Of a stretch of DNA of 64,000 nucleotides, positions 3,547 to 34,478 are shown piece by piece (positions within the stretch are counted from its first letter, which is position 1; each line of letters starts with the position of its first letter). The position numbers were made by a program, and so were the translations under genes. Source of the stretch: Gammaproteobacteria bacterium (GTDB taxonomy: Bacteria > Pseudomonadota > Gammaproteobacteria > Pseudomonadales > Pseudohongiellaceae); NCBI GenBank assembly GCA_030832825.1, contig JAURIJ010000010.1:1-64000 (forward strand), written 5' to 3'. The notes beneath the pieces were generated by a model that did not search any database, was not told where the DNA came from, and was given only the letters and a program-made list of their open reading frames with translations.

Positions 3547-4863
<1,317 letters not shown>

Positions 4864-4874
4864 GCGGGCTCTCC

Positions 4875-5381
<507 letters not shown>

Positions 5382-6620
5382 TCATCCTCCCAGTGCATTC
5401 GCGCGCGCCTTGTCGCGCTGCAGGGCCTGCACGGAGCGAATCAGTGGCAGCATGATCAGCACGAAAATGATGATCGAAGCAACACCGAGGGCGCCGAATG
5501 CGACCCGCAACCCCTGCGTCTCGGCCACGCGTCCCAGCAGCGGGCCGGTGAGCATGAAGCCGAAGCGAAAGTTCAGACTGGTGAGCGAGTTCACCGTCGC
5601 TCGCACATTGCCCGGCACGCGGCGATTGAGCGCATTCACCATGATCACCTGACACAGGCCGCGGCAGAAGAACAGGATGAATCCCACGAGGATTCCCGCC
5701 CAGCCCTGCAGCCACGCCATGCCGAAATGCCCGAGCACCGGCAGCAGACCGATCAGCGCCAGAGCGAACACCGGCCCCCGGTGGCGCTCCAGATAATGCC
5801 CGCACTGACTGGCCACGCCGACGATGACACTCTGAGCGAACCACAACGCGCCGAACATCACCAGCGACAAGCCCTGCGCCTCCCAGTAGGGCTGCGCCAG
5901 CCAGGCCACGTGAAAGGTGCAGAGGTTGTAGAGCGGAATCGCCACGAAAGTCTGCCGCAGCACCTTGTCGCCCAGCATCAGGTGCGCGTAGATCGCCCTG
6001 AAGCCACGCAGCGGTCGGGTGCCAGGTGCCTCACGATACGGGGGCTCGTGCAGCAGCAGTGCCAGCACGAGGCAGACCCAGGCCACACCGGCCTGGGTCG
6101 CCACCATCAGGTCGAAGGAATTCACGGCCAGCGCGCCACCCGCCAGTGCCCCCGCCCCTTCGGCAAATGCCTTGGTGGACGACAGATGCGCGATGCTGCC
6201 TGTGTGCGCGTCTTCCGAGTCTGACAGCGCCTTCTCAGTGTCATACAGCAGTGCCAGATCCGCGCCCGACATCATGCTCGCGGCCACGCCCAGCAGGCAC
6301 TCGAAGATCAGCAGTTGCACGAAGCTGTCGGCGAACACCAGCCAGCCGTAACCCAGCCCGTGAGCGATGCTGCCGATCAGCAGCACCGTGCGGCGCCCGA
6401 AGCGATCCGCCAGCATGCCCGAAGGTGCCTCGAGTACCACGATGAAGCCGGCATAGACGGCCTGCAGATAGAAGATCTCGCTCAGGCTCAGCCCCTTCGA
6501 CTCGAGGAACGGCACGATCACCGGCACGATCAGCATGAACATGTGAAAGAAGGCCAGCGCATGGATGATGCGGATATTGCGCTGCAGTGCCGCAGTGCTG
6601 AGCTGGTTTTTCACAGGCAT
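5382..6620 (-). CDS. MFS transporter
   Basis: 412 residues with about twelve transmembrane helices and the MFS loop signature GMLADRFGRRTVLL after helix 2. An ATG at 6618-6620 is chosen because a strong GGGGGA ribosome site lies just before it; an upstream in-frame ATG would add eleven unlikely residues. The substrate cannot be read from sequence. The acidic central loop (LLYDTEKALSDSEDAHTG) is of the kind seen in MFS proteins with a GADLALLYD motif, often annotated as drug or sugar exporters. It stands between glnK and a small terminated unit and shows no obvious functional partner. Confidence 0.85.
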   Translation of the reverse strand: MPVKNQLSTAALQRNIRIIHALAFFHMFMLIVPVIVPFLESKGLSLSEIFYLQAVYAGFIVVLEAPSGMLADRFGRRTVLLIGSIAHGLGYGWLVFADSFVQLLIFECLLGVAASMMSGADLALLYDTEKALSDSEDAHTGSIAHLSSTKAFAEGAGALAGGALAVNSFDLMVATQAGVAWVCLVLALLLHEPPYREAPGTRPLRGFRAIYAHLMLGDKVLRQTFVAIPLYNLCTFHVAWLAQPYWEAQGLSLVMFGALWFAQSVIVGVASQCGHYLERHRGPVFALALIGLLPVLGHFGMAWLQGWAGILVGFILFFCRGLCQVIMVNALNRRVPGNVRATVNSLTSLNFRFGFMLTGPLLGRVAETQGLRVAFGALGVASIIIFVLIMLPLIRSVQALQRDKARANALGG

Positions 6621-6673: not shown

Positions 6674-6716
6674 AAAAAAAAGGCCTCGGAGTTCGGTGGG
6701 AACTCGGAGGCCTTTT
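6674..6716 (-). terminator. Strong rho-independent terminator (minus strand)
   Basis: Arms 6678-6694 and 6700-6716 pair over 17 positions with one mismatch around a 5-base loop. On the minus strand the stem is followed by eight T residues (plus-strand A at 6674-6681). It closes the small unit that carries the 36-codon ORF at 6746-6856. It could also act weakly on the plus strand. Confidence 0.85.
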
Positions 6717-6745
6717 CAGGGTTCAATCATTATTGAATCAGAAGT

Positions 6746-6856
6746 TTACTCCAAGCCACCCTCCCGGGCGTTCTTCACCGCAATATGCAGCGCGCGCACA
6801 TCGACGCGGGTCGATGTGTGCATGCAGACTGTGCGGCTGGTGCGTGGGGCAAACAT
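6746..6856 (-). CDS. Small ORF (36 codons) in its own promoter-terminator unit
   Basis: A 36-residue frame starts at an ATG whose complement is 6854-6856 and stops at TAA 6746-6748. It reads MFAPRTSRTVCMHTSTRVDV and continues with LHIAVKNAREGGLE, a basic N-terminal half followed by a short amphipathic stretch; there is no membrane helix. A GAGAC element lies seven bases before the start. What makes it credible is context: a good sigma-70 promoter (6898-6925) lies about 40 bases upstream and a strong terminator (6674-6716) about 30 bases downstream, so a transcript of about 220 nucleotides is expected. The product could be a small protein, or the transcript could be a regulatory RNA with an accidental frame. 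I do not recognise it. Confidence 0.45.
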   Translation of the reverse strand: MFAPRTSRTVCMHTSTRVDVRALHIAVKNAREGGLE

Positions 6857-6897
6857 GATGAGTCTCTGGTGTTGCAATCGGGTTCAAGAAGGCGCGA

Positions 6898-6925
6898 AGT
6901 CTATGCCTTTGCAATGGCATGTCAA
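6898..6925 (-). promoter_or_regulatory. Sigma-70 promoter for the small unit
   Basis: On the minus strand a perfect -35 TTGACA (6920-6925) is followed after 16 bases by TAGACT (6898-6903). The predicted start near 6890 leads into the 36-codon ORF and the terminator at 6674-6716. It lies just after the SirB2 stop, so the unit can be expressed independently. Confidence 0.6.
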
Positions 6926-6942
6926 GCGAAAAACTGTTCGTT

Positions 6943-7311
6943 TCAGAAAATGGTCTTGGTCGATGCCACCATGAAGATGTAGCCGGCAGTGACCAGGGCC
7001 AGCGCGAAGAACGCGATGCGGGCCTGACGTGTGCGGGCGGTGCGCATGACGGCGACGCCGAGGCCGATGTAGACCAGCAGGCCCACGATCTTGGCACCGA
7101 CCCATGGCGCCACCCAGGGGTACATGCCGGACATCACCACCAGCGTGATGGCTGTCAGCAGCAGGAAGGTGTCGATGACGTGGGGCAGCACACGCACCAG
7201 CTTCTTCTCGACGATCGGTGACTCATTGATCTTGAGGATTCCGCGCACTAGAAAACCGAGGACGGAAATCGAGGCGAGGGACATGTGCAGGATCTTGATG
7301 AAGGTATACAT
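6943..7311 (-). CDS. SirB2 family membrane protein
   Basis: 122 residues with four predicted transmembrane helices, starting MYTFIKILHMSLASISVLGF and carrying LPHVIDTFLLLTAITL and a PWVGAKIVGLLVYI segment typical of the SirB2 family. SirB2 was named from Salmonella, where it was linked to SirA regulation, but its molecular role is not known. Length matches the family. It stands alone between a hydrolase gene (66-base gap) and the small terminated unit downstream. The family call is confident, the function is not. Confidence 0.85.
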   Translation of the reverse strand: MYTFIKILHMSLASISVLGFLVRGILKINESPIVEKKLVRVLPHVIDTFLLLTAITLVVMSGMYPWVAPWVGAKIVGLLVYIGLGVAVMRTARTRQARIAFFALALVTAGYIFMVASTKTIF

Positions 7312-34435: not shown

Positions 34436-34449
34436 GATGTGTGAAAGGA

Positions 34450-34478
34450 AAAAGCCCGGCACTGCCGGGCTTTTTTTT
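34450..34478 (+). terminator. Rho-independent terminator of the exported FAH gene
   Basis: Stem GCCCGGC (34454-34460) and GCCGGGC (34464-34470) with a 3-base loop and AAA/TTT extension, followed by eight T residues (34471-34478). It stands 15 bases after the stop. Confidence 0.9.

Follow-up and report, generated by a model that had tools for sequence, protein, structure and literature searches.

The locus

The window analysed here is a stretch of 64,000 nucleotides from a gammaproteobacterium of the Pseudohongiellaceae, and the features of interest lie between a SirB2-like gene and the gene of an MFS transporter. All are on the minus strand and are given in the order in which the strand is read.

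6943-7311, minus strand: SirB2-like gene (Pfam SirB, E 2.5e-37), the upstream neighbour in this genus only and outside the switch discussed below
6898-6925, minus strand: predicted sigma-70-type promoter, -35 TTGACA (6925-6920), spacer 16, -10 TAGACT (6903-6898)
6674-6891, minus strand: predicted leader RNA of about 218 nt, its start near 6891 assumed from the -10 box, its end the U tract
6746-6856, minus strand: leader ORF of 36 codons, ATG to TAA, MFAPRTSRTVCMHTSTRVDVRALHIAVKNAREGGLE, with no clear Shine-Dalgarno sequence
6794-6821, minus strand: hairpin within the ORF, 12-nt arms and 4-nt loop, not common to the whole genus
6749-6757, minus strand: element A, GGCUUGGAG, the last three ORF codons and putative 5' strand of the antiterminator, pairing extendable to about 6761
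6722-6737, minus strand: small hairpin UUCAAUAAUGAUUGAA, lying between A and the terminator and showing compensatory changes within the genus
6716-6700 and 6694-6678, minus strand: arms of the terminator hairpin, 17 nt each
6699-6712, minus strand: element C, GGCCUCCGAGUUCC, within the terminator's 5' arm and alternative partner of A
6682-6694, minus strand: element D, GAACUCCGAGGCC, in the 3' arm of the terminator
6674-6681, minus strand: U tract of the terminator, eight T as read from the sequence
5382-6620, minus strand: MFS transporter gene, ATG at 6620, Shine-Dalgarno-like GAGGGGG at 6631-6625 (Pfam MFS_1, E 1.5e-24)

The initial annotation had described a complete small transcription unit of about 220 nucleotides between SirB2 and the MFS gene, and most of its parts are as it had them. 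The -35 is perfect and the -10 follows at 16 bases, the 36-codon frame (6856-6746) is basic with a net charge of about +3 as counted by hand, and the predicted length agrees with the one proposed. The eight T residues behind the terminator stand as well, while the stem, given as 17 bp, contains one mismatch and has 16 pairs; this mismatch is probably the reason that the automatic terminator scan did not report the hairpin. The -35 box starts 17 bases behind the SirB2 stop codon. About 0.4 promoter-like sites (sd 0.7) are expected by chance in 1 kb, which makes a single site unremarkable, and the promoter alone is not beyond chance. It is conservation that decides on the reality of the unit. 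The fold of the predicted leader RNA is far beyond chance (z -5.1, 0 of 200 shuffles). Rfam gave no family at the gathering threshold, the one match in the window being NsiR1 at 15.5 of 39 bits, and in 13 related loci there were zero matches at threshold and only chance matches at permissive thresholds.

The nearest NCBIfam models to the MFS protein are the HP1165-type and TetA(P) exporters, with scores that fall far short of the cut-offs, and a PDB sequence search with it gave zero matches. Its AlphaFold model has a pLDDT of 89.7, and a Foldseek search with this model placed NorA first among solved structures with many other MFS folds, importers included, close behind. From these comparisons the protein is likely an exporter. 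A glnK-like P-II protein gene and a gene that by eye resembles amtB, for an ammonium transporter, follow on the same strand (3547-5213). A link to nitrogen control through these two genes was considered and dropped, as sigma-54 promoter patterns show no excess in the window (85 vs 104.6 expected). The interval from the MFS gene to glnK contains a strong inverted repeat, GTGCAGATGCAC...GTGCATCTGCAC (5338-5369), that lacks a minus-strand T tract, and a bidirectional terminator-like hairpin, AAAAAGCCCGGCACTGCCGGGCTTTTT, lies at 34449-34475.

Conservation and linkage to the transporter gene

The initial annotation had made the unit's recurrence in relatives a point on which it would stand or fall, and recurrence is what we find. 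SirB2 is present in 13 of 14 genomes of the genus and the unit lies directly behind it in all 13, with TTGA of the -35 box kept at the same place in every one of them and TTGAC in 12. In the genus alignment the -35 box, the end of the ORF and the terminator are all kept. In a DNA search two relatives matched over the whole unit (96% and 78% identity) and others over parts of it. The covariation analysis that had been proposed as a check is also positive, in that the terminator, a hairpin at the ORF end and a small A+U-rich hairpin covary within the genus (10 cells with two-sided changes vs a shuffled mean of 2.6; 0 of 500 shuffles). Beyond A, C, D and two small hairpins little of the RNA is conserved. 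Wherever the contig continues, the MFS gene or its remains come next; in one genome (G011) the contig ends before that gene.

Orthologues of the MFS gene came from 31 of 59 genomes of the family and 29 of 293 of the order, and from named genomes 80 of 162 loci were kept. The named-genome matches at 50-62% identity include several Pseudohongiella, and isolates such as Pseudohongiella nitratireducens SCS-49, Pseudohongiella sp. O18 and gamma proteobacterium NOR5-3 are among the named matches. The resulting 131 upstream regions were reduced to 103 distinct ones by removal of near-duplicates, one locus on a truncated contig (L068) and two weaker matches without loci not being included. A script found an intrinsic terminator upstream of the MFS gene in 95 of these 103 loci, and a short ORF usually precedes it, stopping 17-41 bases before the stem. 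The eight misses are L062 and L168, which by eye have a hairpin with a poor T tract, and the six Bacteriovoracales loci; these six are all that the set holds of that group, so that it offers a natural contrast. At four distant loci (L076, L077, L159 and L163) a gap of 195-279 bases separates the terminator from the matched part of the MFS gene, and this terminator may be another element. Only 11 of the 103 loci have SirB2 in the flank, and leader ORF and terminator precede nearly all gammaproteobacterial orthologues of the MFS gene, across the Pseudomonadales also where there is no SirB2. The description of the unit as free-standing has to be given up, given its tie to the MFS gene, the 92 of 103 loci with SirB2 outside the flank, and the complementarity between terminator arm and ORF end described below.

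Searching from the side of the peptide leads to the same gene. A leader-peptide profile run over 99 family genomes gave 34 matches at E<=1e-5, never more than one to a genome, and all 30 of the loci that were fetched have the MFS gene or its pieces behind the leader. The remaining four matches are the window itself, G011 with its contig end, and two genomes (G362 and G377) with no MFS match. Five genomes keep an intact leader though their MFS gene is in pieces (G345, G358, G364, G370 and G374), which counts against a strict link. In G008, G009, G358, G364, G370 and G374 the MFS gene is truncated or broken up, and other family genomes lack it; judged from these sequences it seems to have been lost repeatedly within the family. 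A search of plasmids gave no relative at E<=1e-20.

The leader frame

Pfam and NCBIfam gave zero matches to the leader peptide, and its protein matches in genus members are at 92% and 67% identity. The ribosome-binding sites at the start codons of the leader ORFs are weak. An intact frame is present in 11 of the 13 genus genomes with the unit, and these frames are 36 or 40 codons long; the middle of the ORF drifts and varies in length, and its end is conserved and of the CTTAGAGTA or CTTGGAGTA type in most rows of the alignment. The frame is lost in the other two genomes, through an internal stop in G009 and, in G008, for want of an ATG-started frame that gets to the conserved stop; in both the MFS gene is a C-terminal end only, which counts in favour of a leader that belongs to this gene.

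The synonymous-substitution test suggested in the initial annotation gave a divided answer, strong in the sister genus and weak in the genus of the window. Over the codons of GHQFCSRVVKN in the sister genus pN/pS is 0.34 in frame vs 1.05 and 1.02 in the other two frames (n=24, that is 24 of 25 rows, L059 being left out for a one-codon deletion). For sister pairs in the window's genus the values are 0.79 in frame vs 1.08 and 1.02, indicating weak selection. By these substitution patterns the leader frame of the sister genus is under purifying selection, and that of the window's genus is retained with a peptide that appears nearly free to vary. Some of the sister-genus constraint lies at the level of the RNA, where AUGACC and GGUCAU form a hairpin that is paired in 94.7% of cells. 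At the amino-acid level the motif G-H-x-F-C-x-R-V-V-K-N-W-E is kept, and its Cys is invariant in 24 of 24 leaders with its two codons split 12/12. The invariant Cys and His are not kept at the corresponding place in the window's genus, and neither the 36 aligned leaders nor the other leaders listed contain a run of codons for one amino acid.

Complementarity of the ORF end and the terminator

Element A (GGCUUGGAG) pairs with CUCCGAGUU in the terminator 5' arm C, and C also pairs with D to make the terminator; the A-C pair was derived from duplex prediction and from the fold of the transcript cut before D. In the window's genus 92.3% of A:C cells are paired, vs at most 57.3% with the partner slid along, and in 25 sister-genus sequences the values are 96.3% vs at most 66.7%. 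The corresponding 82.4% from alignment A3 is a lower estimate, as this alignment misplaces A in rows L069-L072 and L086. Covariation of A and C within the window's genus is no greater than in shuffles (73 of 500). Covariation in a single genus is too weak to prove the pairing, and a swap of A and C between distant loci was used in its place. Over 94 of the 95 loci, one being too short, native partners fit better than swapped ones (z -9.0, 0 of 5000 permutations), and with 25 diverse representatives z is -5.8, compared with +1.1 for a control stretch further upstream. A and C thus differ between distant clades yet are still complementary. Locus by locus, a shuffle test of A:C is less telling and reaches p<=0.05 in only 35 of 95 and p<=0.01 in 16 of 95.

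Some other families (L082, L085, L088 and similar loci) have a further sequence between the terminator and the MFS start, for instance GGGTTCTC or TTGGTTCTCCGG, with complementarity to the terminator 5' arm and loop. This is possibly a second layer of control; no such second stretch is seen behind the terminator in the window.

Calculated folding and ribosome position

In the window RNA cut before D the calculated probability that C pairs with A is 0.75 without a ribosome, 0.79-0.82 with a ribosome at any of four upstream positions, and 0.00 with a ribosome at the stop codon, where A is blocked by construction. The means over 68 loci are 0.60 for the free RNA, 0.62 for a ribosome 15 codons before the stop and 0.02 for one at the stop, and A:C pairing is back once at least seven to eight codons separate the P-site from the stop. 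With the sequence upstream of C shuffled, the mean drops to 0.21 from its native 0.74, and each of the 68 native values is above its own shuffled mean. Both of these tests used those of the 95 loci with an assignable leader ORF (36 assigned by motif and 32 by hand). Of the terminators upstream of the MFS gene 88 of 94 reach a probability of at least 0.5, vs 14 of 65 among the other terminators of these loci. In calculation, geometry and folds are consistent with a choice set by the place of the ribosome on the ORF.

Once D is present, the equilibrium fold of the full-length leader is always the terminator (P 0.90 in the window). Because the terminator wins at equilibrium, the choice of antitermination must be a kinetic one that is made during RNA synthesis. 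In known attenuators the choice is likewise made while the RNA is being synthesised.

Interpretation and alternative explanations

Two marks of a leader-peptide attenuator are present here: a short ORF lies between a promoter and an intrinsic terminator upstream of the MFS gene, and the terminator arm has an alternative partner upstream. With its 5' arm complementary to the ORF end, the hairpin is more readily understood as an attenuator than as a gene's 3' boundary. We hold it very probable, judging from sequence comparison, that the unit serves the downstream MFS gene as its 5' leader and is a ribosome-mediated transcription attenuator of the leader-peptide type. Comparison across loci establishes that the unit is linked in cis to the MFS gene, that two helices compete, that A and C have co-evolved and that the frame is selected in the sister genus. 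In the mechanism that we propose, RNA polymerase would start at the promoter behind SirB2 and make the leader, and a ribosome would translate the 36-codon ORF. Only a ribosome that has finished the ORF would cover A; standing at the stop codon, it would leave C free to form the C:D terminator, transcription would stop at the U tract with an RNA of about 220 nt as the product, and the MFS gene would be off. A ribosome held upstream, or one that never started, would allow A to pair with C before D is made, no terminator would form and the MFS gene would be on. The transcript is predicted to exist and the switch to act in the cell, with a signal that would slow ribosomes on the leader.

The initial annotation had left the choice between a small protein gene and a regulatory RNA, and something of both is kept, for the unit contains a small ORF whose frame shows signs of translation together with an RNA element; what is not kept is a gene in its own right, as the unit is a leader of the MFS gene. 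That the 36-residue basic peptide acts alone, the MFS gene having its own promoter, might be suggested by the complete look of the unit and by the conserved frame in the sister genus. We think this quite improbable when the unit tracks the MFS gene rather than SirB2, the peptide sequence is almost free to change in the window's genus, complementarity between terminator arm and ORF end far exceeds that of controls, and a search of the interval between the terminator and the MFS gene gave no promoter-like site. A trans-acting small RNA ending at the terminator would account for the strength of the fold, and terminated attenuators can leave stable RNAs. Selection on codons in the sister genus, the lack of an Rfam family, and conservation of just those parts that build the two competing helices make such an RNA extremely unlikely, and the terminated RNA may conceivably have a side role as well.

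Two further possibilities would keep the terminator as a switch with another sensor. One is an attenuator of like build that senses a single amino acid through tRNA charging, in the style of the trp and his leaders, with which it would share the layout of leader ORF and terminator; the invariant His and Cys codons of the sister-genus motif could be taken in its favour. We regard it as unlikely, however, in that no leader contains a run of a single amino acid, the Cys and His that are invariant in the sister genus are missing from the corresponding place in the window's genus, and the regulated gene codes for a transporter with efflux-type relatives and not for a biosynthetic enzyme. The other is a riboswitch-like attenuator that binds a metabolite or a protein, the ORF being incidental. 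The conserved hairpins beside the terminator would fit it, but there is no Rfam match, selection in the sister genus is purifying and in frame, and little of the RNA is conserved apart from A, C, D and the two small hairpins, which leaves this reading with a very slight probability.

Returning to the ribosome-mediated attenuator, the retention of the frame with a nearly free peptide in the window's genus fits a switch worked by the position of the ribosome better than a strict arrest peptide. The most likely natural signal would be a ribosome-targeting compound that is exported by the transporter, to which we give somewhat less than an even chance. The sister-genus motif sits exactly at the place where, in the proposed mechanism, a ribosome would have to pause for the antiterminator to stay free, its P-site about 8 codons short of the stop codon. 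A more speculative thought, which we put forward only tentatively and consider rather unlikely, is that the leader represents a new family of regulatory nascent peptides, in which the peptide in the tunnel senses a small molecule that the transporter exports (for example a ribosome-targeting natural product), and that this pair of sensor and exporter is older than the families of the Pseudomonadales.

An attenuator that is order-wide and uncatalogued would explain how a large uncharacterised family of transporters is switched on. It would also give a direct handle on the substrate, since anything that stalls ribosomes on the leader would be a candidate. More generally, a small gene that looks free-standing can be a regulatory leader. 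The open full text, to which subscription papers mostly do not belong, gave nothing on this leader or transporter, and no MFS case occurs in the passages of PMC2965389 that deal with premature terminators.

Comparison with known systems

Switches of this kind are known above all from the resistance genes of Gram-positive bacteria; the present one seems to be an old chromosomal part in Gammaproteobacteria of the sea and of fresh water. Mef(E) is an MFS exporter, as the protein of the window probably is. By analogy, the layout and logic proposed here match those of mef(E)L, BmrB and PA5471.1 and resemble those of mdtU. The mef(E)/mel operon of Streptococcus pneumoniae is described as having a leader peptide and a Rho-independent terminator before the efflux gene, with stalled ribosomes favouring an anti-attenuator (PMC4335068), and the window likewise has a leader peptide and an intrinsic terminator ahead of a transporter gene. 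Mef(E)L, however, is given as 8 codons (MTASMRLR) placed far upstream of its terminator (PMC4335068), whereas the ORFs described here have 29-55 codons, the last of which are the antiterminator strand, and there is no sequence relation.

The bmrB leader of bmrCD in Bacillus subtilis is reported as a 53-codon ORF with terminator and antiterminator in which the ribosome senses translation inhibitors (PMC4191407), and it shares with the window the leader ORF, the terminator/antiterminator pair and the transporter gene downstream. It differs in that its terminator falls within the bmrB reading frame and an ABC transporter is the target; blocking bmrB translation is also stated to lower expression (PMC4191407), while for the window leader the calculated folds predict read-through when no ribosome is present. 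The PA5471.1 leader of armZ in Pseudomonas aeruginosa comes from the same bacterial order and, going by its description in a review, has a leader peptide and a terminator and is induced by ribosome-targeting antibiotics (PMC12057347). It controls an anti-repressor and not a transporter, and attenuation there is described as proposed (PMC12057347). For mdtU, a 34-codon ORF upstream of the exporter gene mdtJI in Escherichia coli, the account is of Rho-dependent termination with spermidine as the signal, which differs from the present case; in mdtU as in our leaders, conservation is reported as strongest at the C-terminus, where it overlaps the base-pairing region (PMC7815308).
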